Assembly: GCA_038380435.1 (NCBI GenBank)
Contig: JAWZYU010000127.1
Coordinates: forward strand, 333,501 to 397,500
DNA length: 64,000 nucleotides
Direction: 5' to 3'
Source: Ryuthela nishihirai
Taxonomy: Eukaryota; Arthropoda; Arachnida; Araneae; Heptathelidae
The notes beneath the pieces were generated by a model. That model had not been told where the DNA came from, did no database searches, and saw nothing but the letters and a program-made list of their open reading frames with translations. The number at the start of each line of letters is the position of its first letter. The first letter of the stretch is position 1. The translations under genes were made by a program, and so were the position numbers. Shown piece after piece: positions 757 to 56,185 of this stretch.

Positions 757-2160
757 TTATCCAGATGCCAACTACAGCACGAACATACCACCACGGCTAT
801 TTTGGAAAAAACTAAATTGATTACGAAAGTTTATAGAAAGAGACACAAGTCTGTCCTTGCACATGATAAATATATTCTTTTGTGGTGTTTACCACATATT
901 TAATCAGTTCACACTTCCTTCTTGCTCCACTCATTTGTATTATTTTTCCTGTCTTCCTTCTTCTTTCCTCTTCTCACCTTTCGCTCAGTCCCTCCCCCCC
1001 TGTTATATTCTTTCCCCCCCCCCCCTTCTATTTCTCTTGCCACCTCTCCTTTTTCATATTACCTTTCATTCTCACTATCAAATTATCCTTGCCTTTTTAC
1101 TTTACCCATATGCTTCAATTAACTCCTTTTGTTTCAAACCCATTACACACTATCAGAACTTTAGCGCCCCCCCCCCCTTATCGTAACCAATTTTTTTATC
1201 ACTTTTAACCCTATCATAAGACAATGCATATTTTTAACAGTTCATAGAGTGTTTACTTGTGGGAATCAGCCATGGGGTTCTCTTGCAATTTGCATTCTCA
1301 TGGCCCCCCACAATTTCTCTTTTCGGTTTGTTTTAACAAGTTTGAGTAAACAGGTTGCAAGGTATCTGCCCCCACTGGTCGCATTTGGCCATATGAGTAG
1401 ACACCAGCATAGAGCAATACTGTAGTGTGTTGGTGGCCGCATTTTCCGCCCCCCTCCCTAATTGTGGGAGCTGTGGGAGGGGAGGGGGGTGTAGTGGCCT
1501 CACTTCACTGCAGTGTTTAAGATTTCAAAAGTAGACCTTGCCCATTGAAATTTTCAAACAAATGAAAAATTTCTAATTACCGATGGAATATTTTTGGATA
1601 GCCCGGTTTGTTTCGCTAAGAACCGGGACTGACAAATGGAGATAGAGTTTGGAAAGTAGTGAGTGAATTTGTAATGTAAAACAATTCGAAGTTGATAAAA
1701 GGATTATTCTAATAGAAAAGGTTTTTAAGGGGATAATAGGCTTTCTATGGTGAAGGGAATTAGAGGTATAAAGCATTAGTATTGTATATTTTTTTCTTTG
1801 TTGGCTATGGCTAGGCTTCGTGATTTCTATTTCTTTTTGTGAATGCTAGGTGTTAGGGTACGTTTATACGATGTGTGTGTGTGGGGGGGGTTATGTTGTC
1901 AGGGGCTGGAATTGTTGGGCGAGTGCGTTTCTCAGATGGCCATGTTAATACTTGCTGGGTGTGTGGGGTGGGGATGAATAAGGCAAAGGGAGATTCAGGC
2001 GAAGTGAGGATGGGCGGGTGGAGGTGGTTGCGACTGCGTTTCCCGGCATCCGACGGACTTTTCAAAAAAATACATCAGACGGACTTCCTGTTTTGCTTTA
2101 CATCTGATACGATTACTAAAGAACTTTAAATGTTGCATGTACTAATTTTGGATTAAATAT
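757..2160. other. LINE 3' flank and unassigned sequence
   Basis: No gene is recognised. The first 450 bases after the LINE stop are pyrimidine-rich (C runs near 1010-1025 and 1166-1178) and may be the 3' UTR of the LINE fragment. A G/C-rich inverted motif lies near 1445-1490 (CCCCCCTCCC against GGGAGGGGAGGGG). A TG-rich, G-run stretch sits at 1870-1980. Short frames here on both strands look random. Confidence 0.4.
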
Positions 2161-2162
2161 GT

Positions 2163-2309
2163 GGGCCGCTACCGGAAGTAGTGCAATACCGGTCCAACCC
2201 GTGACAGAGGTTGAGCAAGCTCAAAGCACTCCGTCGAACTACAAAAATAAGATTAATATCTTGATTTCATATAGAAATCGTATCAGATATTAAGCTGATA
2301 AGAACAGAT
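2163..2309 (-). ncRNA. U2 snRNA, 3' part (split gene)
   Basis: Read on the minus strand from 2309, this continues U2 from about nucleotide 39 to the 3' end. It starts ATCTGTTCTTATCAGCT, then forms stem IIa (ATCAG/CTGAT) and a stem IIb hairpin (GATTTC-TATAT-GAAATC). The Sm site ATTTTTG follows, then stem III (GACGGAG/CTCTGTC with the TTGAGC-TTGC-TCAA tip) and stem IV (ACCGG/CCGGT). The stem IV loop is TATTGCACTA where TATTGCAGTA is usual, a change in the U2B'' binding loop. Joined length without the insert would be about 185 nt, normal for U2 (188 in human). The stems are well kept, so the gene decayed little before or after being split. As it stands the transcription unit is interrupted and presumably inactive. 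Confidence 0.92.
2293..2309. repeat. Target-site duplication, U2 3' side
   Basis: The 17 bases AGCTGATAAGAACAGAT (plus strand) recur exactly at 4158-4174. They correspond to U2 nucleotides 39-55, just downstream of the branch-point recognition sequence. They bracket the insertion and mark it as transposition into U2, not rearrangement. Confidence 0.93.
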
Positions 2310-2318
2310 TTGAAAAGC

Positions 2319-2324
2319 TTTATT
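2319..2324 (-). terminator. Polyadenylation signal near element 3' end
   Basis: TTTATT on the plus strand reads AATAAA on the minus strand, about ten bases before the insertion joins U2. This fits a Pol II-type 3' end of a minus-strand element. The hexamer is common in AT-rich DNA, so position is the main support. Confidence 0.4.
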
Positions 2325-2380
2325 GAAGCAATAATAATCAGAATACAGGGTTTTTTAAAAAATAGTAGAATCCTCTTCAC

Positions 2381-2523
2381 AGGCACAGCATAGGTCTTCA
2401 TAAACAGTATCTTCAGCCTGCTAACAAAATTGCAAACTCATTTAAAGAGTTACGAAAATGATCTACAATAAAGGAAGAAGATGAGGCACAGCATAATTCT
2501 TCACCGACAAAATCTTCAGCCTC
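2381..2523 (-). repeat. Internal direct repeat, about 103-bp period
   Basis: AGGCACAGCATA followed by a shared CTTCA...ATCTTCAGCCT block occurs at 2381 and again at 2484 within the U2 insertion. The two copies differ by several substitutions, so the duplication is older than the insertion or drifts quickly. Confidence 0.6.
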
Positions 2524-3144
2524 ATTTACAATGGAAGAAAAGTCGGAAGGAAGGAAGGAAGGACGACGAGGAAGCCGGATGGTAGCAGCAAAGAAAACTC
2601 GTCAGACATCCCTGAGAGCTGAAGAAGAAGCAGAGGCGGATGACAACAGCGTAGCTCCGAAGAGGCATCCGCGGTGCACTGGAAGGAGCAGGTCACGACG
2701 TGCAAAACAAGGTCTGTGAACAAGGGAGCTCAAAAAGACAAACATCATCAGCAGGCGTGACAGGAAACTGCAATCAGGAAATCGATGCAGGTGATTTCGA
2801 GGCTTCTCAGCATCCAGTCCAAGGAAGGCGAAAAAACAGCGTTGACGAGTAAGTTCCCAGAAGCAGAGATTCTATTGTTCGTGTGGAGAGTTCAAGTAAT
2901 GTCGCATTGAAGGGTAACTGAGGGAACTCGATGAATCACAGAGGACACAGGCACAATCCGAAGAACTGGGCAAGGGAGCTCAGGATGAACGGCAGACAGG
3001 AAGCCTGGATCGTGAACAGAACCTTGAACCATCCTGAATTAATAGGAGAGTTCGTCTAAAGACCAATAGTGTGGTAAGTTATAGCCATACCCTCAGTATG
3101 TGGAAAGGAAACGTTTCGAATACTGCGATCAGGGTACCTACTGC

Positions 3145-3493
3145 TGCGGTCAGCGTCGCTCACTAGGGAGAGCAAGACGAAGCACCACACCAAAAAAGTC
3201 GGTAGAGCAAATGCAGGTGAAGAATGTCCTCGGTGATAGATAGCTGGTGATGGGTTACGTGAAGATCATCAAACCTGGAAGAAACATGATGGACAACAGG
3301 TACGTCTGGGTTCGGCTCTGAATCAGAAGAGCTGGAGAACATCTAAAGACACGGTGGCCTGGTAGGTGAAAGTACACCCTTCAGAAAGGAAAGGGGAGCC
3401 CCTCAGCATCTGGAATCAGGGTGTCAGTCGCCACGGTCAGCATCGCCCACTAGAGAGGGCAAATGAAGCACCAAGCCACGCCAGTCGGTAGAG
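3145..3493 (-). repeat. Internal module duplicated at 286-bp spacing
   Basis: A block of about 63 bases at 3145-3207 (CGGTCAGCGTCGC...AGTCGGTAGAG) recurs at 3431-3493 with about 80 percent identity by eye. Similarity extends weakly upstream into both units. The spacing implies an imperfect tandem duplication of nearly 290 bases inside the U2 insertion. Confidence 0.65.
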
Positions 3494-4095
3494 AAGACAA
3501 AACGGTCAGCAGAGGGCATCCACATCAAATTCAGCTGATGGCAGTGACTACATGAAGAAAACGTGTCGTTTAATAGAAGATGAGCCAGCTGACAGCTACT
3601 TGTGGTGCAGGTGCAGGTTCTCTGCTCCGAAAATCCCGTGGCTATCAGCCGATGGGAGCAGATGGAGGAGGATCTTCACAAAGCATCTATTGAAGGAGAG
3701 TTCGATGTGCCTTGGGAACAGTGCAGAACCAGGAGGCAAGTCGTCAGAAAGTCCTCCGTCACCACCGCTGTGTCGAATGGCGACGATGATCAGCTTCTGG
3801 CGTTTTGAATAAGTGACAGGTACCGCCAAGAAAACGTGGGAAATTGCGGTCGAGCGACGGCACTAAAAGTGCAAGTCGCGAAAATTCGCAAACATCCACG
3901 GCGGTAGCTATCGCACGAACCGCTCGAGGAGAGCTAAAGAGCCTTTAAGAGGCCCCCCTGGGGGTTGAGCATTTGCTCGGTTTACGGACAGTACCATACT
4001 CACCAAGGGGGTGGCTCCTCAGCGGGCGGCTCCGGAGGCATCAGTCCATCAGGCGGGAAAAGGCTCCAGGGCGTCCGTAGATCCCGGCAGTCCTT

Positions 4096-4157
4096 GGGTC
4101 GGTGGAAAACCCGGCATCGTCCGTTTCTTTTCAACGGGTCGAGGGAAAACCCGATTG
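4096..4157 (-). other. Structured 5' end of the U2 insertion
   Basis: Two near-identical 18-base segments, GGGTCG(G/A)(T/G)GGAAAACCCG, lie 40 bases apart at 4096-4113 and 4136-4153. Each is self-complementary at its ends (GGGT...ACCC), so each can form a hairpin, and a third hairpin (CCGTT/AACGG) lies between them. Such a structured leader right at the 5' junction recalls the 5' RNA structures of R2-like elements. I could not fit an HDV-type ribozyme core. Confidence 0.45.
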
Positions 4158-4174
4158 AGCTGATAAGAACAGAT
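4158..4174. repeat. Target-site duplication, U2 5' side
   Basis: Exact partner of 2293-2309. On the minus strand it is the last intact U2 sequence before the insertion begins. Confidence 0.93.
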
Positions 4175-4212
4175 ACTACACTTTGATCTTAGCCAAAAGG
4201 CCGAGAAGCGAT
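4158..4212 (-). ncRNA. U2 snRNA, 5' part (split gene)
   Basis: Minus-strand reading from 4212 gives ATCGCTTCTCGGCCTTTTGG, then CTAAGATCAAAGTGTAGTA and ATCTGTTCTTATCAGCT. These are the first 55 nucleotides of U2: stem I, the U6-pairing strand, and the GTAGTA branch-point recognition element, all intact. The triple A in GATCAAAGTG differs from human U2 and matches the arthropod and nematode form. Transcription from its own promoter would run straight into the insertion, so a read-through RNA would be a U2 5' end fused to the element. Confidence 0.95.
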
Positions 4213-5580: not shown

Positions 5581-5684
5581 GCGGCGGGGGTGGCTTAGTC
5601 GGTAGCGAGCCAGGCTCGTAATCTGTAGTTCCCAGGTTCGAGTCCCAGCTGGGTCAGCGTTGAGATTTATCTCCGCAAAAATTC
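5581..5684 (+). mobile_element. SINE-A, 5' head fragment
   Basis: The tRNA-like head is present: an A box (TGGCTTAGTCGG), a CTCGTAA anticodon-like loop and a B box (GGTTCGAGTCC). The GTTGAGATTTATCTCCGC junction to the body follows. The copy stops about 105 bases in. Confidence 0.85.
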
Positions 5685-22656: not shown

Positions 22657-22775
22657 TGTCAACTGCACGCGGTGTTCCCAGGTGGTCACCCTCCCAAGTA
22701 CTGACCGCGCCCAAAGCTGCTTAACTTCGGGGATCAGACGAGAACCGGTGCTTTCAGCTTGGTATGGCCGTTGAC
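22657..22775 (-). rRNA. 5S rRNA sequence, full length
   Basis: Minus-strand reading gives a 119-base 5S. The 5' end is GTCAACGGCCATACCAAGCT and the middle CGGTTCTCGTCTGATCCCCG. GAAGTTAAGCAGC is the A-box region, GGTCAGTACTTGGGAGGGTG the C-box region, and the 3' end is GTGCAGTTGACA. The terminal helix pairs perfectly (GTCAAC/GTTGAC). A run of nine T follows at once, a good Pol III terminator. It could be transcribed. Whether it is a working gene, a pseudogene or the head of a SINE depends on the conserved tail; three other copies here are damaged. Confidence 0.85.
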
Positions 22776-29009: not shown

Positions 29010-29373
29010 CTACCTCTGAGCGGCACTTTTTTGCACACCATGGGCCAAATGGCCAGGTCACATAGACCCCGAAGGGTGAGAGAAGGTTGGGGGAGGGGAT
29101 TCACTTGAACAGCTGTTGTGAGACAGATGGTAGCCTCCCGTCAAGGCCATCCAGCGTGTTCTTTAACGTGCACAGGGTATGTCTCTCCCGCACACGGTTT
29201 AACGTCCAATACGACGGACGGCGCCCTTTCCAAGCCCATCGGTGTCCCCTACTGACAGTGGGCAGGGCAGGGAATTTTGCGGAGAAAAATCTGAACGCTG
29301 AACCAGCTGGGAGTCGAACCTGGGAACTACAGATTACGAGCCTGGCGCGCTACCGACTGAGCCACCCCGCCCC
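29010..29373 (-). mobile_element. SINE-A at start of tandem unit 1
   Basis: Body and head are present, with a 14-base loss in the CCCCGTGTGCGG region near 29190. It begins the first large direct repeat unit; the equivalents are at 42635 and 57413. Confidence 0.88.
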
Positions 29374-31470
29374 CGTCTCCACGGTGTCAGATTGTTAATA
29401 AAACCAGTGAAGTTTGATAATTAAATTAATCAATCCCAGTTATTTAAGCTGAAACGTTATAGTGGAATTGTATGTAATTTCCGGCTTTGATATTAAATTG
29501 CATTCGCATATTTTAAATATTAACGTTTCTGAAATATTATAATATTACTATTAATCCTTCCTAAATGTAGTTCGATTCTTGTTTAGGTAAAATTTACGTG
29601 GTCTATGAACTTTATTCTAAATATACGTAATAAAATATATTATGGAAAAGAAGAAATGAATTGAGAGTAAAATTTGACACTGAAGTGAAAGCGAATACAT
29701 GGTTGCTATCGTAACTAAGGGCGCCACGTGTGAAGCTATCTAGGTGCACGTGCCATTGTAACATATTTGACCAATCGTAGAAGAGGAACACGAAGAACCG
29801 TTGGGAAAGGCGGGAAGCAGGAAATATTTCATTAGAAACAAAATTAACGCCACCTAGAGGAATTTATTTCATTTAGCAATAATTGTATGTGTTTAAGTAC
29901 ATAAGTTATATTTATGCATTCATGTTTCAAAACTTTAATGAACACTATTTGAATATTACCACGTATAGTATGCTGGAATATAAATTTAGGACACCTTTTT
30001 GGGTGAGGGGAAATGTGAATTTTTTTTTTTGTTACGGTTCAACTTATTTGGACTTCCGACCTGAAATTTCGCACTGCAAACTGGACCTTAACCTGAAACT
30101 TTCTGTGAAAATTTCGAGCGTGTACATTGATTTCCCCGATGAGTTATGACTGCCAGAGACAGGTAGTAAATGCCACTCCGCAACTCGCTAAGTTATGACG
30201 CTGTATTCCGTATCATCTCATTGGGATAAAATTTACGAACAATAATAGGTTTTAAAACACAAAAAAATACCCTTGATAATTAAGAGACATTAGGAAAACT
30301 ATTTTATTTTACTACTTCAACTGATGCAGTATTTAATTAGTAACGCAAGTTCGGATGTTTAATAGCAGCGATATCTGTTTATTTAGTCTGAAACCCTAAA
30401 AGAAACAAGTTTAAAGGAAGGGAGAATGGAATAATCTACCTTTCATTGGGCACAGCGATAAATATGCTTCGGTTTCCATTTCTATTTAAGTACGGAGCTC
30501 ATAAAGAATCCTCAGCGTTGAGATTTATCTCCGCAAAACAAAAATTTATCTCGCCCTTCCCACGGTCAGTACTGGACACCGATTGGCTTGGAATACATTA
30601 TTCACAATATAAAATTATCCATAACAGCAACATAATTTTAACGAATTTCTGTATTACAGACTACACAGGGATTAAGTGCTTAGCCGAGGAGTGATTTCAT
30701 ACCCTAAACATTTAACCTCTAATGATTATTTTATTTCCTAATCCAAAGAGGCTTAACGTGTTAGGGAAAAGAGTGAAAATATCTTCATAAATATAATAAA
30801 GGAATAAAAAAACACCCCCTCAAGCAGCTGCTTGCAACAGCGATCTAACAGGAGCCTGTCAGTTTCCCCGCCATAGTCGAAGGTCTGTGAGGGTGGTGAC
30901 CCCTTTAATTACTTTAATACGCCATATATTAGATATGCGTTTGGTTGGGTTGTTTCATCTCTGAACGGTAGTTATTTGCACACAAGGGTCTAAATGGCGA
31001 CGTCATAAAGAACCAGAGGGATCAGTTTAGGTTGCGGGAAGGTGACCGAATGTTATGAGACAGATGAAAAAATAGGAGATTGGTTCCAGACGTGAAAAAA
31101 AACAACATACCCCCTCAAGAAGCTGCTTCCCACAGAGATCTGACAGGAAGCTGTCACTTTACATACCATAATAGAAAGTCTGTGAGGATGACAGGTCCTC
31201 AGCACAAAAACGACACGTACGTCCATGCCTTACCCGGGACTCGAACCCAGGTCCCTTAGACGTGAAAACCGAATACAAATGAGTTGTTTTCAAACAAGTG
31301 ATATCAAAATCTTGAAGTCTTTATTTCATTTTTATTAATTTTAAGACATTTTTAATTTCATAAACTTAGTAGTTTTCAAATTAAAACCAACCGGTTTGGT
31401 TTTAAAGAAAAGAAATATATAAAGAATTCTTCAATATTTTTTGGTTTTTTTTTATCTTTGTAGTTTTTTT
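29374..31470. repeat. First part of tandem unit 1
   Basis: Non-coding. It holds a SINE-A scrap at 30513-30590, SINE-B pieces at 30814-30905 and 31106-31262, and a SINE-A relic at 30946-31070. It matches 43000-45085 at an offset of about 13,615-13,624 and 11.2-13.3 kb in inverse. Confidence 0.75.
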
Positions 31471-31828
31471 TTTAACTCAGCTCGTAGTCTGTAGTTCCCA
31501 GGTTCGAGTCCTAGCTGGGTAAGCGTTGAGATTTATCTCCGCAAAATTCCCCGCCCTGCTCACGGTCAGTAGGGGAGACCGGTGGTCTTGGAAAGGATGC
31601 CGTCCGTCGGATGGGGCGTTAAGCATTGGCCCCGTGTGTGTGAGAGCCATATCCTGTGCACGTTAAAGAACACGCTGGATGGCCTTGACGGAAGGCTACC
31701 ATCTGTCTCCCAACAGCTGTTCCAGTAAGTCCCCTCCGCCAACCTTCTCTGAGCCTTCGGGGCCCATGTGACCTGGCCATTTAGCCCATGGTGTGCAAAA
31801 AAGTGCCGCTCAGAAGTAAAACAACCCA
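31470..31828 (+). mobile_element. SINE-A, 5' truncated within head
   Basis: It starts at the anticodon arm (GCTCGTAGTCTGTAGTTCCC) and keeps the B box and full body to CAGAAGTAAAACAACCCAAC. The direct duplicate is at 45085-45443. Confidence 0.88.
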
Positions 31829-32047
31829 ACCTATTAGATTATCTAAATATTGTTTCAGGATGTTTCTGAAGGGTAAAATAATTCATTTATACTACAGAAA
31901 ATAAATGATCTAAATAAATGCACCAAATTCTGTTTTAAATTTTTAAACGGTAAATAGGTTCCGGAAAAAAACGTGTAAAAAAAAAATTCTAAAACAAAAC
32001 ACAGTGCATATGAAAAAATAGAAGATTGGTTCCAGACGTGAAAAAAA

Positions 32048-32112
32048 AAACATACCCCCTCAAGCAGTTGCTTGCCACAGAGATCTGATAGGAACCTGTC
32101 AGTTTATATGCA
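32048..32112 (-). mobile_element. SINE-B 3' scrap
   Basis: CCCCCTCAAGCAGTTGCTTG to the CCTGTCAGTTTATATGC block only. Confidence 0.65.
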
Positions 32113-32289
32113 AGTGTTAGTTTAATTATCTTTATAACTTTAAACACATGAGAGACCAAGACTAACGTATATTGCAGATAAAAATGAGGGGAATTCCCAG
32201 AACTCAAAGTTACCATTTTTTCTAAATGGTTTCGTAGTTTTTCGATCAAATGGAAAATAAAATGCATTAAAATGTTGAGTTGTTTTACC

Positions 32290-33015
32290 TCTGAGCGGCT
32301 CTTTCTTACACACCATGGGCTAAATGGCCATGCCACATGGACCCCGAAGGCTCAGAGAAGGTTGGGGGATGGGACCCACTTGAATAGCTGTTGTGAGACA
32401 GATGGTAGTCTCCCGTGAAGGCCATCCAGTGTGTTCTTTAAAGTACACAGGGTATGGTACTTTTTTGAAAACCATGGGCTAAATGGCCATGCCACATGGA
32501 TCCCGAAGGCTCAGAGAAGGTTGGTGGAGGGTCCTCACTGGAACAGCTGTTGGGAGACAGATGGTAGCCTCCCGTCAAGGACATCCAGCGTGTTCTTTAA
32601 CGTAAACAGGGTATGGTACATTTTTGCAAACCATGGGCTAAATGGCCAGGTCACATGGACCCCGAAGGCTCAGAGAAAGTTGGGGGAGGCTAAACAGCTG
32701 TTGTGAGACAGATGATAGCCTCCCGTCAAGGCCACCCAGCGTGTTCTTTAACGTAAACAGGGTATGGTACTTTTTTTTGCAAACCATGGGTTAAATGGCC
32801 ATGCCACATGGACCCCGAAGGCTCAGAGAAGGTTGGGGGAGGGTCCTCACTGGAACAGCTGTTGGGAGACAGATCATAGGCTCCCGGCAAAGCCATGCAA
32901 CGTGTTCTTTAACGTGCACAGTGTATGGCTTTTCCGCACACGGGGACACGGCCTAAGATCCCATCCGACGGATGGTGACACGGCCTAAAATCCATCCGAC
33001 GGCCTTTCCAAGTTT
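32290..33015 (-). repeat. Second, independent SINE-A 3'-half tandem array
   Basis: Four units begin (plus strand) CCATGGGCTAAATGGCC near 32314, 32472, 32628 and 32784, period about 155-158. Each carries AGGCTCAGAGAAGGTTGG and GTTCTTTAA. The unit boundary (AACAGGGTATGGTACTTTTT) differs from that of the array at 10 kb, so the two arrays arose separately. The final unit runs into a normal SINE-A middle (GCACACGGGGACACGG). Confidence 0.85.
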
Positions 33016-33749
33016 ATCGATTAGTAGAACTAATGGTTGGGCGAGGAAAAAAAATTCTTTGCTTAATTTTTGATTTCTTCATTTTCGTATTTGTCGTTAC
33101 AGTAGGCGTAGAAATATATCTATATCGTAAATGATCAAACGGCAGTTTTTTTTTATGTACAGGTTTTCACATCTATTTGACCCATTACCGCCTGTCTGGA
33201 TAGCCTTCTACAAAAAGAGCGAAAATAGATATGCCTAAACAAGCAATTCCATTCATTGGTTTAAGATAACTTAAAGTTAATTTATTTTAATAACATTCAA
33301 AATAATTTACTTATTAAGATTTTATTTAAATGTTTCCGAATATTTTAAAAATATTTCAAATAACTAGCAGTTAATATTTTAGGATTAGAAATTCTTTTTG
33401 ATTTACACACTTTGTTTCTGAAATATATTGTAAAAATTAAAGTGGGAACATTGGACATTCTCATTCTACTGGGTGACGTCACTTCCGTGTTTTCGCGATA
33501 TCGTTTGTAATCCTTATTTAACCGCTGTATTCTTCTAGTAATTTAACTTTTAATTTATATTCACACGTTATAGTTTTTATTCTGAGGAAGTCATACAATC
33601 TGTAGCTGAATTTCTTATCACTGTGGTAAATAATAATTATTGATGACACATTTGAAATTTCGGTACGAGAATAGATAGTTTCGTCGCTGCAGTGTAAAAT
33701 TTTACCTTTAGGCCTTTGTAATTACTTTACGAGTTATTTGTTTCGCTGA

Positions 33750-34600
33750 GTTGCCTGGTATAGCTCTGTGCTGTCCAACTGCTTCTTCGGCTCTGTCATC
33801 CAAAGATTATTATCAGGAGCTAACTGATCCTTTACACGTTTATTAAGCTCTCTATAATGTTTTCTATTAGAATTAATATTGATTCAGGACATTCCTGTAG
33901 TTCTTTCTTTCTAAAATAAACTCAAGTGCCTTGTCACTCGGATAATTATGCGTCCTCTGTTTCATTTTACGTAAGAGTACCTGTTAGTTTGCAAAAAAGT
34001 CTATTTTAGGTGGTCACATTTTTCCTGAACTTAAGTAGCAAGTAAACCACGACTGTCATAATGAGTAAGTAACCTATCATGATAAGATGTACTCTAATTA
34101 GGTCTTTCACAGCTTCATAATTAAAGGTAAATTTTTTAACCTTAACACAACACTTCTTAAGTTTAAAACGCAAAACGCTTTTAACAAGATAATGGTCAGA
34201 TCCAATTTCAGCTTCCGAATATGACCTGTTCTTTGTAACAGAAGTAGTCCATTTGCTGTTAATTAATATATAATCTACAAAGTTCTTATGCAGCCCATGA
34301 GATGAAACCCACGTGTACTTATGTATGTCGCGGTGTTTGTAATAAGTGTTAGTTATTGTAAAACCATTGAGGTTAACATTGACATTGACGTCACGAAGAA
34401 CAAGGGTAACATCTCATTTCTTCACAGAATTCGAAATACCTTGAAGTTGTCTGTAAAACCTATTTTCTCATCGTCATTCAAAGTGGTGGCATAACAGTAG
34501 ATAAGTTTGAAGTCCTTAACCCTTGTCTGTAATTTTGCTGTAAAGAACCTTTCATTAATATCCTAGGAGAGCATCACTAGCGTCTCATGCCTTGGTGATG
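33750..34600 (-). pseudogene. RTE LINE fragment inside foldback element
   Basis: The minus strand aligns with the endonuclease-to-linker region of the LINE at 38.4-39.3 kb: the TTGCAAGAC/AAACGCAAAAC region, the DHY-equivalent site and the YTWV region. Frameshifts are frequent and no frame exceeds 60 codons. It is the most decayed LINE copy in the window. Confidence 0.7.
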
Positions 34601-35379
34601 TTTATTCTCTTTCTTCACCGAAAATTTCAGATAGTCACGGTGAATCCGAAAAACTTTTGAAAGAGGTACTAGGTTAAAAGGAATGCATCTTATTTCTCGT
34701 CTATAATTTTTAGTAAATTTGGTATACAAGATATCGAAAAATATTAGTGCGGAAGAGGAAACAAACTCCTCTGTTGGGAATACGAAACAATGTAAATGTC
34801 ACTTCCTCCGGATTGTGTAAACAATGCATTCTGAAACGTCACTCTCCGATGTCATTCGCCTCTTATTGAATTCGTCCAACGCTTTTGTCGCTGTTCCATT
34901 AGTCGCGTTAGCTATTAAAATATGGCGAAGAAGTCATCCTATTTTGAGGGTCTGTAATTATCAGAGCTTTGCCTATCGCGAACAGATTCGAGTATAATAA
35001 GGAGCCACAGACAAGGTCCTTGCGGTTGATAAATAACGTCAGCCTGTCCTTCCGTAACTTAGATCTCTGGTGGTCGAAAAGTTTCAGCTAAAGCCAGTTA
35101 AATAATATTCGTGAAGTGTTTGTGGTTCTTTTATATTTTCCTTCAGGTAAGTAATTTTGTAATGAATAATTAGTTAAGAGTATAGGTAATCTAATTCTAC
35201 AGTTTTTAGCCTAAGAGCTATGAAATTTCGGACGGTTTCGAACCAACAAATAGTACGCAGCACATTATTCTGATTATGGGATATAAAATTGATAGCTAAG
35301 CGCTATTTGACGTGTCGACCACTTTATTTTGGCTCGTCATACGGACATTATTCATTTCCTATGCTTTTCACACACCCTA

Positions 35380-35590
35380 CGGAACGGCAACAGAATTTCC
35401 TTGTTATGCCAGTGAGAAACGTTACTTGGAAGCTCTAAAATATGCATTTAATGGAAAAATGTCACTGATGATAAATTAAAGATCATAATCAAATATTTTT
35501 TTTAAATATCGGTTTTAAAAAACATTGTTTTAGTTATATAAAAATATTGTTTAGTCTTCAGTGGTATGCCAGTGAGAAACTGGAATTATT
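35380..35590 (+). repeat. Tandem-repeat unit shared with 60-kb array
   Basis: TATGCCAGTGAGAAACGTTA, CTTGGAAGC and AAATATGCATTTAATGGAAA, then AATGTCACTGATGATAAATT, match units of the array at 60020-60800. A second partial unit starts at 35565. Confidence 0.7.
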
Positions 35591-36489
35591 ATTTCAGCAG
35601 GTAAATTAGAATTACTAATCCTATCGCGAAAATACGGACATGACGTCATCTATCGTATGTCCAAGTGTTGCCACCATAATTTCTATAAGATCTTTCAAAA
35701 CCAAAGTATGTATAAATCGAAAAGAATTTCTAATCCTAAAATATTAACTGGTAGTAGTTATTTCCTTTTTTTAATTTTGGTAAATATTTTTATAATATTC
35801 TGAAATATTTAAATAAAATCTTAATAAGAAAATTATTTTGAGTGTTATTAAAATAAGTTAACTTTAAGTTATCTTAAACCAATGAATGGAATTGCTTGTT
35901 TAGGCATATTTATTTTCGCTCTTTTTGTTGAAGGCTGTCCAGACAGGCGGTAACTAGGTGGCTTTCACGAAACGCGTTTCCCTATGGTGTCCAACGAGAA
36001 ATTCGTAGATCGAGGCTAGGTGTGAATCTCTTACGTATGTCATAGGCAACTTTGTCCTTAGGGGTAAAGAACGGTTTTTCCTGTGTTCACAAAGAACAAC
36101 TCTGTGGTTTAATCTAAGGCTTCTATTACACGTTTCGCTGTACTGTACATTACCTTCTTCTTAGCTCTGAGCAATGCGTTTCCGTGTAGTGGGTAAATTA
36201 TATATTTATCGCCACGTTGACATTTCTTGGGCTCGTTACGTCACCCTATCAGCTCGATATATCTGTTGCGAACATGAGACGTTGGTTTCAAACTTCGTCC
36301 ACGATAATGGGCAAATACATCTGAAAGCATGTACATAAAAATACTGCCGTTTGATCATTTACGATATAGAACTATTTATACGCGTACTGTAACGACGAAT
36401 GGCGAAATGAAGAAATCAAAAATTAAGCAAAGAATTTTTTTTCCTCGGACAACCATTAGTCCTACTGACCGAGCCTAAATGAAAGGGGT

Positions 36490-42634: not shown

Positions 42635-42998
42635 TACCTCTGAGCGGCACTTTGTTGCACACCATGGGCTAAATGGCCACGTCACATGGACCCGGAAGAA
42701 GGCTGGGGTAGGGGACCAACTGGAACAGCTATTGTAAGACAGATGGTAGCCTCCCGTCAAGGCCATCGAGCGAGTTCTTTAACATGCACAGGGTATGGCT
42801 GTCGCACACACGGGGCCACGGCTTAACGTCCCATCCGACGGACGGCGGCCTTTCCAAGCCCATCGGTGTCCGCTACTGACCGTGGGCAGGGCGGGGAATT
42901 TTGCGGAGAAAAATCTGAAAGCTGAACCAGCTGGGACTCGAACCTGGGAACTACAGTTTACGAGCCTGGCGCGCTACCGACTGGCCCACCCCGCCCCT
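42635..42998 (-). mobile_element. SINE-A at junction of tandem units 1 and 2
   Basis: Full body and head are present; the A box reads inverted as CCGACTGGCCCA, one change. Its 5' flank (plus left) CATTTGAATTTAATTCTG equals the flank of the SINE-A at 55600. Its right flank GTGTCAGATTGTTAATAAAA equals that at 29380 and 57805. It therefore joins the end of one unit to the start of the next. Confidence 0.9.
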
Positions 42999-45085
42999 GT
43001 CTCCACGGTGTCAGATTGTTAATAAAACCAGTGAAGTTTGATAATTAAATTAATCAATCCCAGTTATTTAAGCTGAAACGTTATAGTGGAATTGTATGTA
43101 ATTTCCGGCTTTGATATTAAATTGCATTCGCATATTTTAAATATTAACGTTTCTGAAATATTATAATATTACTATTAATCCTTCCTAAATGTAGTTCGAT
43201 TCTTGTTTAGGTAAAATTTACGTGGTCTATGAACTTTATTCTAAATATACGTAATAAAATATATTATGGAAAAGAAGAAATGAATTGAGAGTAAAATTTG
43301 ACACTGAAGTGAAAGCGAATACATGGTTGCTATCGTAACTAAGGGCGCCACGTGTGAAGCTATCTAGGTGCACGTGCCATTGTAACATATTTGACCAATC
43401 GTAGAAGAGGAACACGAAGAACCGTTGGGAAAGGCGGGAAGCAGGAAATATTTCATTAGAAACAAAATTAACGCCACCTAGAGGAATTTATTTCATTTAG
43501 CAATAATTGTATGTGTTTAAGTACATAAGTTATATTTATGCATTCATGTTTCAAAACTTTAATGAACACTATTTGAATATTACCACATATAGTATGCTGG
43601 AATATAAATTTAGGACACCTTTTTGGGTGAGGGGAAATGTGAATTTTTTTTTTGTTACGGTTCAACTTATTTGGACTTCCGACCTGAAATTTCGCACTGC
43701 AAACTGGACCTTAACCTGAAACTTTCTGTGAAAATTTCGAGCGTGTACATTGATTTCCCCGATGAGTTATGACTGCCAGAGACAGGTAGTAAATGCCACT
43801 CCGCAACTCGCTAAGTTATGACGCTGTATTCCGTATCATCTCATTGGGATAAAATTTACGAACAATAATAGGTTTTAAAACACAAAAAAATACGCTTGAT
43901 AATTAAGAGACATTAGGAAAACTATTTTATTTTACTACTTCAACTGATGCAGTATTTAATTAGTAACGCAAGTTCGGATGTTTAATAGCAGCGATATCTG
44001 TTTATTTAGTCTGAAACCCTAAAAGAAACAAGTTTAAAGGAAGGGAGAATGGAATAATCTACCTTTCATTGGGCACAGCGATAAATATGCTTCGGTTTCC
44101 ATTTCTATTTAAGTACGGAACTCATAAAGAATCCTCAGCGTTGAGATTTATCTCCGCAAAACTCCCCGCCCTTCCCACGGTCAGTACTGGACACCGATAG
44201 GCTTGGAATACATTATTCACAATATAAAATTATCCATAACAGCAACATAATTTTAACGAATTTCTGTATTACAGACTACACAGGGATTAAGTGCTTAGCC
44301 GAGGAGTGATTTCATACCCTAAACATTTAACCTCTAATGATTATTTTATTTCCTAATCCAAAGAGGCTTAACGTGTTAGGGAAAAGAGTGAAAATATCTT
44401 CATAAATATAATAAAGGAATAAAAAAACACCCCCTCAAGCAGCTGCTTGCAACAGCGATCTAACAGGAGCCTGTCAGTTTCCCCGCCATAGTCGAAGGTC
44501 TGTGAGGGTGGTGACCCCTTTAATTACTTTAATACGCCATATATTAGATATGCGTTTGGTTGGGTTGTTTCATCTCTGAACGGTAGTTATTTGCACACAA
44601 GGGTCTAAATGGCGACGTCATAAAGAACCAGAGGGATCAGTTTAGGTTGCGGGAAAGTGACCGAATGTTATGAGACAGATGAAAAAATAGGAGATTGGTT
44701 CCAGACGTGAAAAAAAACAACATACCCCCTCAAGAAGCTGCTTCCCACAGAGATCTGACAGGAAGCTGTCACTTTACATACCATAATAGAAAGTCTGTGA
44801 GGATGACAGGACCTCAGCACAAAAGCGACACGTACGTCCATGCCTTACCCGGGACTCGAACCCAGGTCCCTTAGACGTGAAAACCGAATACAAATGAGTT
44901 GTTTTCAAACAAGTGATATCAAAATCTTGAAGTCTTTATTTCATTTTTATTAATTTTAAGACATTTTTAATTTTATAAACTTAGTAGTTTTCAAATTAAA
45001 ACCAACCGGTTTGGTTTTAAAGAAAAGAAATATATAAAGAATTCTTCAATATTTTTTGGTTTTTTTTTATCTTTGTAGTTTTTTT
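42999..45085. repeat. First part of tandem unit 2
   Basis: Nearly identical to 29374-31470, including SINE-A and SINE-B scraps (44132-44215, 44427-44515, 44560-44685, 44722-44877). No gene is present. Confidence 0.75.
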
Positions 45086-45443
45086 TTTAACTCAGCTCGT
45101 AGTCTGTAGTTCCCAGGTTCGAGTCCTAGCTGGGTAAGCGTTGAGATTTATCTCCGCAAAATTCCCCGCCCTGCTCACGGTCAGTAGGGGAGTCCGGTGG
45201 TCTTGGAAAGGATGCCGTCCGTCGGATGGGGCGTTAAGCATTGGCCCCGTGTGTGTGAGAGCCATATCCTGTGCACGTTAAAGAACACGCTGGATGGCCT
45301 TGACGGAAGGCTACCATCTGTCTCCCAACAGCTGTTCCAGTAAGTCCCCTCCGCCAACCTTCTCTGAGCCTTCGGGGCCCATGTGACCTGGCCATTTAGC
45401 CCATGGTGTGCAAAAAAGTGCCGCTCAGAAGTAAAACAACCCA
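45085..45443 (+). mobile_element. SINE-A, 5' truncated (unit 2)
   Basis: Direct duplicate of 31470-31828, differing at single bases (for example GGGGAGTCC against GGGGAGACC). Confidence 0.88.
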
Positions 45444-45663
45444 ACCTATTAGATTATCTAAATATTGTTTCAGGATGTTTCTGAAGGGTAAAATAATTCA
45501 TTTATACTACAGAAAATAAATGATCTAAATAAATGCACCAAATTCTGTTTTAAATTTTTAAACGGTAAATAGGTTCCGGAAAAAAACGTGTAAAAAAAAA
45601 ATTCTAAAACAAAACACAGTGCATATGAAAAAATAGAAGATTGGTTCCAGACGTGAAAAAAAA

Positions 45664-46625
45664 AACATACCCCCTCAAGCAGTTGCTTGCCACAGAGATC
45701 TGATAGGAACTTGTCAGTTTATATGCAAGTGTTAGTTTAATTATCTTTATAACTTTAAACACATGAGAGACCAAGACTAACGTATATTGCAGATAAAAAT
45801 GAGGGGAATTCCCAGAACTCAAAGTTACCATTTTTTCTGAATGGTTTCGTAGTTTTTCGATCAAATGGAAAATAAAATGCATTAAAATGTTGAGTTGTTT
45901 TACCTCTGAGAGGCTCTTTCTTACACACCATGGGCTAAATGGCCATGCCACATGGACCCCGAAGGCTCAGAGAAGGTTGGGGGATGGGACCCACTTGAAT
46001 AGCTGTTGTGAGACAGATGGTAGTCTCCCGTCAAGGCCATCCAGTGTGTTCTTTAAAGTACACAGGGTATGGTACTTTTTTGAAAACCATGGGCTAAATG
46101 GCCATGCCACATGGATCCCGAAGGCTCAGAGAAGGTTGGTGGAGGGTCCTCACTGGAACAGCTGTTGGGAGACAGATGGTAGCCTCCCGTCAAGGACATC
46201 CAGCGTGTTCTTTAACGTAAACAGGGTATGGTACATTTTTGCAAACCATGGGCTAAATGGCCAGGTCACATGGACCCCGAAGGCTCAGAGAAAGTTGGGG
46301 GAGGCTAAACAGCTGTTGTGAGACAGATGATAGCCTCCCGTCAAGGCCACCCAGCGTGTTCTTTAACGTAAACAGGGTATGGTACTTTTTTTGCAAACCA
46401 TGGGTTAAATGGCCATGCCATATGGACCCCGAAGGCTCAGAGAAGGTTGGGGGAGGGTCCTCACTGGAACAGCTGTTGGGAGACAGATCATAGGCTCCCG
46501 GCAAAGCCATGCAACGTGTTCTTTAACGTGCACAGTGTATGGCTTTTCCGCACACGGGGACACGGCCTAAGATCCCATCCGACGGATGGTGACACGGCCT
46601 AAGATCCATCCGACGGCCTTTCCAA
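45664..46625 (-). repeat. SINE-B scrap and SINE-A tandem array (unit 2)
   Basis: SINE-B scrap at 45664-45727, then the four-unit SINE-A 3'-half array at 45897-46625. Unit number and boundaries equal those at 32290, so this array is older than the tandem duplication. Confidence 0.82.
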
Positions 46626-46636
46626 GTTTATCGATT

Positions 46637-49600
46637 AGTAGAACTAATGGTTGGGCGAGGAAAAAAATTCTTTGCTTAATTTTTGATTTCTTCATTTTCG
46701 TATTTGTCGTTACAGTAGGCGTAGAAATATATCTATATCGTAAATGATCAAACGGCAGTTTTTTTTTATGTACAGGTTTTCACATCTATTTGACCCATTA
46801 CCGCCTGTCTGGATAGCCTTCTACAAAAAGAGCGAAAATAGATATGCCTAAACAAGCAATTCCATTCATTGGTTTAAGATAACTTAAAGTTAATTTATTT
46901 TAATAACATTCAAAATAATTTACTTATTAAGATTTTATTTAAATGTTCCGGAATATTTTAAAAATATTTCAAATAACTAGCAGTTAATATTTTAGGATTA
47001 GAAATTCTTTTTGATTTACACACTTTGTTTCTGAAATATATTGTAAAAATTAAAGTGGGAACATTGGACATTCTCATTCTACTGGGTGACGTCACTTCCG
47101 TGTTTTCGCGATATCGTTTGTAATCCTTATTTAACCGCTGTATTCTTCTAGTAATTTAACTTTTAATTTATATTCACACGTTATAGTTTTTATTCTGAGG
47201 AAGTCATACAATCTGTAGCTGAATTTCTTATCACTGTGGTAAATAATAATTATTGATGACACATTTGAAATTTCGGTACGAGAATAGATAGTTTCGTCGC
47301 TGCAGTGTAAAATTTTACCTTTAGGCCTTTGTAATTACTTTAGGAGTTATTTGTTTCGCAGAGTTGCCTGGTATAGCTCTGTGCTGTCCAACTGCTTCTT
47401 CGGCTCTGTCATCCAAAGATTATTATCAGGAGCTAACTGATCCTTTACACGTTTATTAAGCTCTCTATAATGTTTTCTATTAGAATTAATATTGATTCAG
47501 GACATTCCTGTAGTTCTTTCTTTCTAAAATAAACTCAAGTGCCTTGTCACTCGGATAATTATGCGTCCTCTGTTTCATTTTACGTAACAGAGTACTGTTA
47601 GTTTCCACAAAAGTCTATTTTAGGTGGTCACATTTTTCCTGAACTTAAGTAGCAAGCAAACCACGACTGTCATAATGAGTAAGTAACCTATCATGATAAG
47701 ATGTACTCTAATTAGGTCTTTCACAGCTTCATAATTAAAGGTAAATTTTTTAACCTTAACACAACACTTCTTAAGTTTCAAACGCAGAACGCTTTTAACA
47801 AGATAATGGTCAGATCCAATTTCAGCTTCCGAATATGACCTGTTCTTTGTAACAGTAGTAGTCCATTTGCTGTTAATTAATATATAATCTACAAAGTTCT
47901 TATGCAGCCTATGAGATGAAACCCACGTGTACTTATGTATGTCGCGGTGTTTGTAATAAGTGTTAGTTATTGTAAAACCATTGAAGTTAACATTGACATT
48001 GACGTCACGAAGAACAAGGGTAACATCTCATTTCTTCACAGAATTCGAAATACCTTGAAGTTGTCTGTAAAACCTATTTTCTCATCGTCATTCAAAGTGG
48101 TGGCATAACAGTAGATAAGTTTGAAGTCCTTAACCCTTGTCCGTAATTTTGCTGTAAACAACCTTTCATTAATATCCTAGAAGAGCATCACTAGCGTGTC
48201 ACGCCTTGGTGATGTTTATTCTCTTTCTTCACCGAAAATTTAAGAATCCGAAAAACTTTTGAAAGAGGTACTAGGTTAAAAGGAATGCATCTTATTTCTC
48301 GTCTATAATTTTTAGTAAATTTGGTATACAAGATATCGAAAAATATAAGTGCGGAAGAGGAAACAAACCCCTCTGTTGGGAATACGAAACAATGTAAATG
48401 TCACTTCCTCCGGATTGTGTAAACAATGCATTCTGAAACGTCACTCTCCGATGTCATTCGCCTCTTATTGAATTCGTCCAACGTTTTTGTCGCTGTTCCA
48501 TTAGTCGCGTTAGCTATTAAAATATGGCGAACAAGTCATCCTATTTTGAGGGTTTGTAGTTATCAGAGCTTTGCCTATCGCGAACAGATTCGAGTATAAT
48601 AAGGAGGCATAGACAAGGTCTTTGCGGTTGATAAATAACGTCAGCCTGTCCTTCCGTAACTTAGAACTCTGGTGGTCGAAAAGTTTCAGCTAAAGCCAGT
48701 TAAATAATATTCGTGAAGTGTTTGTGGTTCTTTTATATTTTCCTTCAGGTAAGTAATTTTGTAGTGAATAATTAGTTAAGAGTATAGGTAATCCAATTCT
48801 ACAGTTTTTAGCCTAAGAGCTATGAAATTTCGGACGGTTTCGAACCAACAAATAGTACGCAGCACATTATTCTGATTATGGGACATAAAATTGATAGCTA
48901 ACCGCTATTTGACGGTGTCGACCACTTTATTTTGGCTCGTCATACGGACATTATTCATTTCCTATGCTTTTGACGTACCCTACGGAACGTCAACAGAATT
49001 TCCTTGTTATGCCAGTGAGAAACGTTACTTGGAAGCTCTAAAATATGCATTTAATGGAAAAATGTCACTGATGATAAATTAAAGATCATAATCAAATATT
49101 TTTTTTTAAATATAGGTTTTAAAAAATATTGTTTTAGTTATATAAAAATATTGTTTAGTCTTCAGTGGTATGCCAGTGAGAAACTGGAATTATTATTTCA
49201 GCAGGTAAATTAGAATTAGAAATCCTATCGCGAAAACAAGGACATGACGTCATCTATCGTATGTCCAAGTGTTGCCACCATAATTTCTATAAGATCTTTC
49301 AAAACCAAAGTATGTATAAATCGAAAAGAATTTCTAATCCTAAAATATTAACTGGTAGTTATTTCCTTTTTTTAATTTTGGTAAATATTTTTATAGTATT
49401 CTGAAATATTTAAATAAAATCTTAATAAGTAAATTATTTTCAATGTTATTAAAAATAAATTAACTTTAAGTTATCTTAAACCAATGAATGGAATTGCTTG
49501 TTCAGGCAAAGTTTTGTTAGTTATATATTTATCGCCACGTTGACATTTCTTGGGCTCGTTACGTCACCCTATCAGCTGGATATATCTGTTGCGAATATTA

Positions 49601-55971: not shown

Positions 55972-56185
55972 ATCAACGGCCATAGCAAGTTGAACACACT
56001 GGTTCTCGTCTGATCCCCGAGGTTAAGCTTTGGGCGCGGTCAGTACTTGGGAGGGTGAGAACATGGAAACACCGCGTGCAGTTGGCAGTTTTTTTTCGTA
56101 TGCGCTGTTACTCCTAAAATATTGGTCTACGTTATTCTACGTTGGTTGTCGGGTTCGAATACATTTTTAGTAAATAAATAAATGA
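55972..56185 (+). mobile_element. 5S-rRNA-headed repeat, full head, mutated
   Basis: The head runs from ATCAACGGCCATAGCAAGTT to GTGCAGTTGGCA (56087). It lacks four bases after GGTTAAGC and has a damaged C-box flank (GTGAGAACATGGAAAC for GTGACCACCTGGGAAC). A T-run follows, then the conserved tail (GCGCTGTTACTCCTAAAATA) ending ATTTTTAGTAAATAAATAAA. As rRNA it would be defective. Confidence 0.82.

Follow-up and report, generated by a model that had tools for sequence, protein, structure and literature searches.

The window analysed here, a stretch of 64,000 nucleotides from the spider Ryuthela nishihirai, contains a minus-strand U2 snRNA gene that is split by a 1.85-kb insert, which we name EL (Table 1). 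The two parts of the gene are recovered separately by Rfam model RF00004, the 5' part at 4212-4097 (60.3 bits) and the 3' part at 2338-2156 (123 bits), and comparison with intact genes places the start of the U2 portion of the second match at 2309. These matches bear out a first-pass annotation that had described the two halves of a minus-strand U2 gene around 1,848 bases of non-U2 sequence (4157-2310; 1844 bp if the initial CAAT is assigned to the repeat instead). When EL and one repeat are removed in silico, an intact U2 gene results, the same as at each of the 20 uninterrupted loci that were read. Because of this restoration, and because the reversed-pattern controls for the whole-genome pattern counts are all 0, chance is excluded for the split-gene structure. 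The GTAGTA stretch of the 5' half, which we take to be the branch-point recognition sequence, extends one base into the repeat.

Table 1. Features of the interrupted U2 locus (window coordinates).
Feature	Position	Strand	Basis or content
U2 snRNA 5' half, host nt 1-38	4175..4212	-	Rfam RF00004; identical in 20 intact genes read
5' repeat copy, U2 nt 39-59, C for T at nt 56 (window 4157)	4154..4174	-	
EL, non-coding, 1848 bp; sense strand is the U2 sense strand	2310..4157	-	
EL 3' region	2310..2540	-	two GGCTGAAGA...TGTGCC units, AATAAA, terminal ...GCTTTTCAA
3' repeat copy, U2 nt 39-59	2289..2309	-	
U2 snRNA 3' half, host nt 39 to 3' end	2156..2309 (3' limit approximate)	-	Rfam

The flanking repeat had been called a perfect 17-bp target duplication. 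The exact 17-bp run exists (4174-4158 and 2309-2293), but beyond it a single mismatch (4157, C on the U2 strand and T in the second copy) is followed by a matching AAT before the copies diverge. Two neighbouring element families, B and ZF, lack the A before TCTG where they meet U2, and for this reason we prefer to read the duplication as 20 bp, TCTGTTCTTATCAGCTTAAT, corresponding to host U2 nt 40-59 with 19 of 20 positions matching in the window copy. Alignment reveals one extra A in host U2 relative to the Rfam consensus, and host nt 40 is therefore consensus nt 39.

Whole-genome pattern searches return 106 EL 3' ends and 110 junctions between an EL 3' end and U2 nt 39-53 (up to two mismatches). 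These totals are search counts with 100 places listed for each; array-amplified copies are counted more than once among the junctions, and at least one junction, on C10 with two mismatches, has a family D-like 3' end and is not EL. Among the 100 listed EL 3' ends, 97 continue into U2 nt 39-53 at positions of listed junctions, and the other three read ATCTG and then enter a rearranged or re-invaded U2 site. EL is thus neither a unique genomic segment nor an element with copies in unrelated targets, the two outcomes that the first-pass annotation had named as contrary to its reading. One set of loci holds 41 EL segments; all 38 that reach the 3' end continue with ATCTG, and the remaining three are one 3'-deleted copy and two chimeras. 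One candidate list, in which 40 of 1554 candidates were scored, gives a lower bound. The EL 3' junction falls at U2 consensus nt 39, as it does in Utopia elements.

The same kind of search counts 291 U2 5' halves, of which 33 belong to uninterrupted genes and 258 (89%) do not. Twenty of the 33 were read, and all consist of the two window halves joined, with no differences from the window over U2 (185 bases) and 100 bases upstream and with 0-9 differences over 60 bases downstream. How 33 intact genes persist when 89% of the 5' halves lie outside uninterrupted genes is a sharp question. The search count for U2 3' halves is 457 as against 291 5' halves, and many 3' halves occur without a 5' half.

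The longest stop-to-stop frame in EL is 106 aa, on the strand opposite U2, and no coding capacity was found, in agreement with the earlier description of the insert as non-coding. The two repeated units listed in Table 1 lie 212 nt and 109 nt before the EL 3' terminus, with the AATAAA downstream of them. An HDV-like ribozyme was not found at the EL 5' end by Rfam (E up to 5) or by a simple descriptor scan that spanned U2 nt 1-59 and the initial 250 nt of EL, scans that could miss a divergent ribozyme; a RAGATH-18 match of 22.7 bits is half the gathering score of that model and was disregarded. The predicted RNA fold of the 5' region is not notable (z -1.5). Covariation in a 3' hairpin (one pair, 4 sequences) is equalled by 50 of 500 shuffles and is suggestive only. 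No tRNA, 5S, 7SL or snRNA head was found inside EL. Dada, a DNA transposon that targets snRNA genes, has terminal inverted repeats and a transposase; this candidate was rejected, as the EL ends do not read as mutual inverted repeats and no ORF is of transposase size.

The C at U2 nt 56 in the window's 5' repeat recurs in 58 of 84 EL 5' repeats, in none of 27 U2 3' halves and in none of nine 5' repeats of other elements, in a tally that omits sites where the context on either side is shorter than 20 bases and counts array-amplified loci more than once. The share of C does not differ between repeats behind foreign 3' ends (11/16) and those behind U2 (40/58). L036 has two C-bearing repeats that are not among the 84 and do not fall into any simple class. 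Additional U2 leader precedes EL in two copies (nt ~10-38 in L020 and nt ~30-38 in L036). Together, the substitution and these leaders suggest U2 read-through RNA as a source of EL. If transcription from the U2 promoter yields EL RNA by reading through, as this evidence in part indicates, then the cDNA of EL could carry a U2 leader, and pairing between leader and target may attach the 5' end. The 5' repeats provide a sequence-level test of travel on host snRNA read-through transcripts.

The U2 site is shared with other elements. Present there too are four families of Utopia-like LINEs (A, B, C and D), a Keno-like LINE of the L1/Tx1 type (APE, RT), and two further elements that lack RT: a ZF-protein element (ZF) and K2, a 2.07-kb ORF1-only relative of the Keno-like LINE. 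Families A-D have 44-61% protein identity to one another. Family A matches Pfam RVT_1 at 8.7e-35, and its top PDB match is the R2 protein (5.3e-70); RT was assigned through Pfam in A and D, and in B and C through a protein-level match with A. Long frames with zinc-finger, RT and a pattern that we take to be RLE-like occur in A and native B. An RT tree of 24 rows (5 of our own and 19 of 111 database proteins) gives A-D no clear placement inside or outside the Utopia/NeSL lineage, and the best matches that bear an organism name are from turtles. For the ZF protein, the 7994 scored candidates include no homologue at E <= 0.001, and no Pfam family matches at E <= 0.1. EL, A-D, ZF and K2 are found in tandem arrangements.

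Three hybrids join EL to its neighbours: EL 1-1047 is joined to family B within the B ORF (C1202), EL 1-433 is fused into the RT of C (C1115), and K2 1-1980 is fused to EL 1761-1848 (L092). Reverse transcription may sometimes switch templates between EL RNA and the RNAs of Utopia or Keno, much as hybrid SIDEs and template jumps have been described for R2 (PMC3414825). In every chimera both the 5' end at U2 and the 3' end are complete, which is what a jump would produce, and ~7 bases between the two parts of the B fusion correspond neither to EL nor to the one other B copy read. Deletion between neighbouring insertions is about as likely, falling just short of even odds, since the tandem arrangements supply the substrate and deletion would yield the same structure.

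A short motif links EL to the Utopia-like families. G(A/C/G)CTGAAGA occurs once or twice in the last 700 nt of all six of EL, A, B, C, D and ZF, where shuffles predict 0.000-0.020 occurrences; it is found in neither of the two Keno-like elements and nowhere in the remaining covered sequence of all eight. EL also aligns with A over 54 nt (81.5%, E 1.8e-6), and EL nt 1 to ~1600 has no similarity to A-D outside two chimeras. The first-pass annotation had suggested looking for a LINE that shares an end of the insert. At the 3' end, the RT-encoding Utopia-like LINEs at the site have this motif; among the LINEs read, the 5' end appears only in the two chimeras that carry EL itself. The broader suggestion of a non-autonomous U2 parasite is supported by a non-coding element that is multicopy, lies at U2 and is accompanied there by RT-encoding LINEs.

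Considered as sequence, then, EL is a multicopy, non-coding element that occupies a single U2 position in the listed copies, is flanked by 20-bp repeats, has been 5'-truncated repeatedly and bears a Utopia-like 3' motif. With a probability of roughly 0.83, we interpret it as a non-autonomous, U2-gene-specific non-LTR retroelement that acts as a satellite to the Utopia-type LINEs (R2 group, encoding RLE) at the same U2 nucleotide. Utopia-type proteins would mobilise EL in trans: one of these proteins would bind the 3' motif of EL RNA and nick U2 beside nt 39, and target-primed reverse transcription (TPRT) would begin there.

An independently assembled satellite is not the only possible origin. 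EL could be a SIDE, that is, an internally deleted copy of an unsampled Utopia family, for which the R2 SIDEs described in PMC3414825 offer a precedent; its Utopia-like 3' motif would follow from such descent, and the families read are a part of those inserted in U2. Searches of EL by tblastn with A-D find no Utopia coding trace, and the sole significant match, to C, begins in the EL-derived stretch of the C chimera. No LINE parent of EL is recognised among A-D, and we regard the SIDE origin as doubtful but deserving of appreciable weight.

A single old insertion that was amplified with its array, and that has moved little or not at all since then, is improbable. Part of the EL copy number is array amplification: U2 flanks, wherever covered, match one array unit at about 98-100%, the U2 places on C127 are spaced about 125-130 kb apart, and the truncated copies L009/L010 and L087/L088 share their junctions pairwise. 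However, EL starts at nt 968 (L009, L010), 1599 (L087, L088), 1354 (L089) or 641 (L090) in its truncated copies, and each of these four distinct points is joined to U2 at nt 35-39. Variable 5' truncation with a fixed 3' junction is a hallmark of TPRT, and EL displays it. Among 52 further EL copies, a set chosen without copies directly behind another EL and thus lacking the tandem class, 36 follow U2 nt 1-38, seven follow the 3' end of another element, and nine have no EL 5' end at the expected place. Tandem EL copies within one gene are often not closest relatives (35 copies; 7 within-locus pairs at 5 loci) and belong to different subgroups, the elements whose 3' ends precede EL are several and unrelated, and empty sites exist. 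The four truncation junctions, the tandem insertions and the insertions behind other elements therefore indicate repeated insertion besides array amplification.

Mobilisation of EL by the Keno-like (APE, L1/Tx1-type) LINE instead of a Utopia-type LINE is the least probable alternative, for although the Keno-like LINE and K2 use the same U2 site and one K2/EL hybrid exists (L092), the EL 3' motif is that of the Utopia-like set with no match to the Keno-like 3' end, and EL is flanked by the repeat that also accompanies A, ZF and others, whereas K2 meets U2 at ~nt 41-42 without a repeat.

Beyond the satellite interpretation, we tentatively propose, at somewhat less than even odds, that one U2 nucleotide hosts a community of retroelements with four or more lineages of Utopia-like LINEs, one Keno-like LINE and no fewer than three members that lack RT (EL, ZF and K2). 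In such a community EL would exploit several of the Utopia-like lineages simultaneously, U2-EL read-through would make the apparent duplication partly a copy of an RNA leader, and RT jumps among the RNAs that share this compartment would keep producing hybrids.

SINEs are non-coding elements with small-RNA heads and a LINE-like tail. EL resembles them in being non-coding with a LINE-like tail and differs in its site specificity, its length of 1.85 kb and the lack of any Pol III small-RNA head found. Few transposons target snRNA genes (PMC4640811), and in the open-licence literature we found no report of a non-autonomous Utopia partner or a U2-inserted satellite; the term "non-autonomous", so spelled, is absent from the main text of PMC4640811. 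Keno is described there as a U2-specific APE LINE. It has the same U2 site as EL, and a Keno-like APE/RT LINE is present here, but the APE endonuclease and a different 3' end with no motif in common with EL set it apart.

The likeness to Utopia is closer. According to PMC4640811, Utopia elements are U2-specific RLE non-LTR retrotransposons whose downstream U2 begins at nt 39, the consensus equivalent of host nt 40 here. Reptile Utopia has a 20-bp duplication like that at EL, tandem insertion is reported for Nasonia Utopia and is seen here too, and in both systems disrupted U2 genes outnumber intact ones (PMC4640811). The difference is that Utopia encodes RT and RLE and EL encodes nothing. R2 SIDEs and R2/R1 hybrid SIDEs (PMC3414825) are likewise non-autonomous, occupy the target of an R2-group LINE and have a LINE-like 3' end; these SIDEs retain the R2 5' ribozyme and are internal deletions, whereas no HDV-like ribozyme is detected in EL and no parent is recognised for it. 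If the satellite interpretation is correct, then recognition of the 3' UTR by a helper protein is directly testable and bears on site-specific R2-group proteins generally, and EL would be the counterpart of R2 SIDEs in snRNA genes, one whose likely helpers occupy the site that it does itself.

The U2 snRNA gene of the window is split by EL, an insert of 1848 bases, with both U2 halves in order on the minus strand as the first-pass annotation had proposed (see table). That annotation also described a perfect 17-bp target duplication. The exact run of 17 bp stands, but it is followed by one mismatch, after which the match resumes. Two other elements at this site, family B and ZF, meet U2 at TCTG with no A before it, which makes 20 bp the best reading of the duplication (host U2 nt 40-59, 19/20 identical in the window copy). 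The Rfam U2 consensus is one A shorter than host U2, so host nt 40 equals consensus nt 39, and the EL junction agrees with the nt 39 reported for Utopia (PMC4640811). EL is non-coding, as had been suspected: neither strand holds a notable ORF (the longest stop-to-stop frame is 106 aa), and no small-RNA head was found in it. Its 3' terminus reads ...CAATAAAGCTTTTCAA and a poly-A tail is absent.

Features of the split U2 gene, elements at the same site, and chimeras (C, contigs of the assembly; L, fetched loci)
Feature	Location	Strand	Description
Window	C127:333501-397500		3.11-Gb genome
U2 nt 1-38	window 4212-4175	minus	5' side of insert
EL, 1848 bases	window 4157-2310	minus	between U2 halves
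U2 nt 39 to end	window 2309-2156	minus	3' side of insert
Family A	C443		5.4 kb; same U2 point; open frame 1412 aa with zinc fingers
Family B	C175 (native copy)		same U2 point; open frame 1781 aa
Families C and D			same U2 point; partial sequences; D RVT_1 6.2e-39
Keno-like LINE	C197		same U2 point; partial sequence; Exo_endo_phos 2.5e-13, RVT_1 4.5e-37
K2	L023:2088-4155, L024, L022		2.07 kb; Keno-like relative; ORF1-like frame only
ZF	L027:785-3659, L028:1166-4052		2.9 kb; U2-inserted; zinc-finger frame 659-677 aa
EL nt 1-1047 + B	C1202		fused inside B frame
EL nt 1-433 + C	C1115		fused into RT of C
K2-EL hybrid	L092		U2 nt 1-42, K2 nt 1-1980, EL nt 1761-1848, then U2

The window also contains two 5S rRNA-like sequences at 22657-22775 (-) and 55972-56087 (+); one is a good match at 102 bits, the other a weaker one at 52.5 bits. 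Six tRNA-Thr(CGT)-like matches (9491, 13327, 19480, 28587, 29299 and 55896) are possibly a tRNA-derived SINE. A stretch at 5590-5660 that looks tRNA-like by eye, where ARAGORN reports none, recurs in the array flanks of L038, L060 and L064. There is a 6.9-kb direct repeat (29011-35906 versus 42635-49508, 97.9% identity) among several other large internal repeats.

An initial genome search gave at least 56 matches, in most of which U2 and EL occur together (best 40 of 1554 candidates scored). Genome-wide pattern searches, with reversed-pattern controls of 0 throughout, find the EL 3' end 106 times, so the insert is multicopy and not a unique segment. Allowing at most two mismatches, 110 places join the EL 3' end to U2 nt 39-53, and at least one of them belongs to another family. 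Occurrence at the same U2 position, the check for site specificity that the first-pass annotation had proposed, holds for 97 of 100 EL 3' ends among the matches listed, which coincide with listed U2 junctions. Of the other three, all read, two are in L018, where a rearrangement comes after ATCTGTTCTTATC, and one is in L022, where ATCTG leads into K2. Among 41 EL segments in a first set of fetched loci, all 38 that extend to the 3' end are directly followed by ATCTG; the rest are one 3'-deleted copy (L015) and two chimeras. At L018 a U2 unit carries a palindromic rearrangement, with two EL copies pointing in opposite directions and U2 pieces inverted.

Uninterrupted U2 spans the insertion site at 33 places genome-wide, all exact. 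All 20 such loci fetched equal the two window halves joined; they are identical over the 185 bases of U2 and the preceding 100 bases, and differ at 0-9 of the 60 bases that follow U2. Most U2 5' halves (258/291, 89%) and 3' halves (424/457, 93%) lie outside any uninterrupted gene. The spacing of U2 places in C127 (129.7, 128.7, 124.5, 129.9 and 124.9 kb) suggests a tandem array whose unit is about 125 kb; other contigs have many gaps near this value or twice it, and others of 14.8, 18.0, 35.9, 84.2 and 111 kb. U2 genes look arrayed at ~125 kb in C127, C135, C180, C197 and other contigs, generally with a common orientation within a contig, some exceptions apart; the 64-kb window itself holds one U2 gene. 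C51 has many irregularly spaced U2 3' halves and no exact 5' half among the matches listed (in contig order to C222), which could reflect 5'-deleting insertions or a U2-derived satellite.

Amplification of the array accounts for part of the EL copy number: breakpoints are common to L009/L010 and to L087/L088, and the U2 flanks, where reached, belong to a single array unit (about 98-100% identity). The copies themselves argue that EL also inserted repeatedly and that amplification is not their sole source. Full-length copies differ by 0-2.2% (mean identity 99.1%, n = 35), and copies in tandem within one gene often come from different subgroups (7 within-locus pairs at 5 loci), although two of these seven rank in about the top quarter of all pairs by similarity. 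At some loci EL follows the 3' end of another element (A, B, C, ZF or K2). In a sample of 52 further copies read at the expected 5' end, leaving out those directly behind another EL, 36 follow U2 nt 1-38, 7 follow another element and 9 have no EL 5' end there. Fuller reading of six of these nine, plus L009/L010, gave truncated copies that start at EL nt 968, 1599, 1354 and 641, each fused to U2 at nt 35-39, as well as one copy with an internal deletion (L091) and the hybrid at L092. Pieces of 351 bases represent L037 and L083, where EL is truncated and part of U2 is also missing, and L036, where EL has a U2 leader. A fixed 3' junction with variable 5' truncation is a hallmark of target-primed reverse transcription.

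The other occupants of the site include candidate helpers. The Utopia-like (A-D, 44-61% protein identity to each other) and Keno-like labels rest on target site and domains, not on RT-tree placement of A-D. Family A matches RVT_1 (8.7e-35) and, best in the PDB, R2 (5.3e-70), and its C-terminus has an RLE-like pattern. The best PDB match of the Keno-like LINE is LINE-1 ORF2. No RT was found in ZF; scoring 7994 database candidates gave no relative of its protein at E <= 0.001, and no Pfam family matched at E <= 0.1.

The first-pass annotation had called for a LINE that shares an end with EL; family A, nearest to EL by 3' end, aligns with it over 54 nt (81.5% identity, E 1.8e-6). EL, A, B, C, D and ZF each contain one or two copies of the motif G(A/C/G)CTGAAGA within their last 230 nt (0.000-0.020 expected from shuffles); it is absent from the rest of the sequence read of these elements and from the Keno-like LINE and K2. 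On the strength of this motif and the match to A, EL appears to use a Utopia-type protein. The original observation is real, and its interpretation as a possible non-autonomous U2 parasite is right in substance. The EL and A units could also form a 5-bp stem whose outer pair occurs as G-C, C-G and U-A; with four sequences and 50/500 shuffles as good, this covariation is a hint only.

The native B copy shows that the C1202 fusion lies inside the B frame. EL-LINE and K2-EL hybrids may come from template jumps, as described for R2 (PMC3414825), or from deletions between neighbouring tandem insertions, which would produce an identical arrangement.

A 5' repeat copied afresh from the target at each insertion would be expected to carry the target T at U2 nt 56. 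This base is T in 27/27 U2 3' halves and in 9/9 5' repeats of other elements, and C in 58/84 EL 5' repeats, counts in which array-amplified loci enter more than once; two further C sites, outside the 84, are in the odd locus L036. C is as frequent behind foreign 3' ends (11/16) as behind U2 (40/58); it therefore travels with EL, and the 5' repeat, at its end at least, is element-borne. Extra U2 leader precedes EL in L020 (nt ~10-38, within a U2 3' fragment behind a Keno-like 3' end) and L036 (nt ~30-38), and K2 in L022 (nt ~25-41, behind an EL 3' end). Such leaders are expected from a U2 read-through RNA; in each case taken singly, recombination between U2 copies is an alternative.

The system is of interest as a site-specific satellite with likely helpers in place, for its U2 genes near-saturated with insertions, and for the element-borne 5' repeat. 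Searches of open-licence papers showed none on a non-autonomous Utopia partner, and the nearest described systems are Utopia and the R2 SIDEs, internally deleted non-autonomous R2 derivatives. Unlike Utopia, EL is without a coding region; it shares the U2 site, the 20-bp duplication of reptile Utopia and the tandem insertion seen in Nasonia. Unlike R2 SIDEs, EL has no 5' ribozyme detected as far as tested and no recognised parent; it resembles them in being non-autonomous and in its hybrids, which, with template jumps, are described for SIDEs and R2 (PMC3414825).
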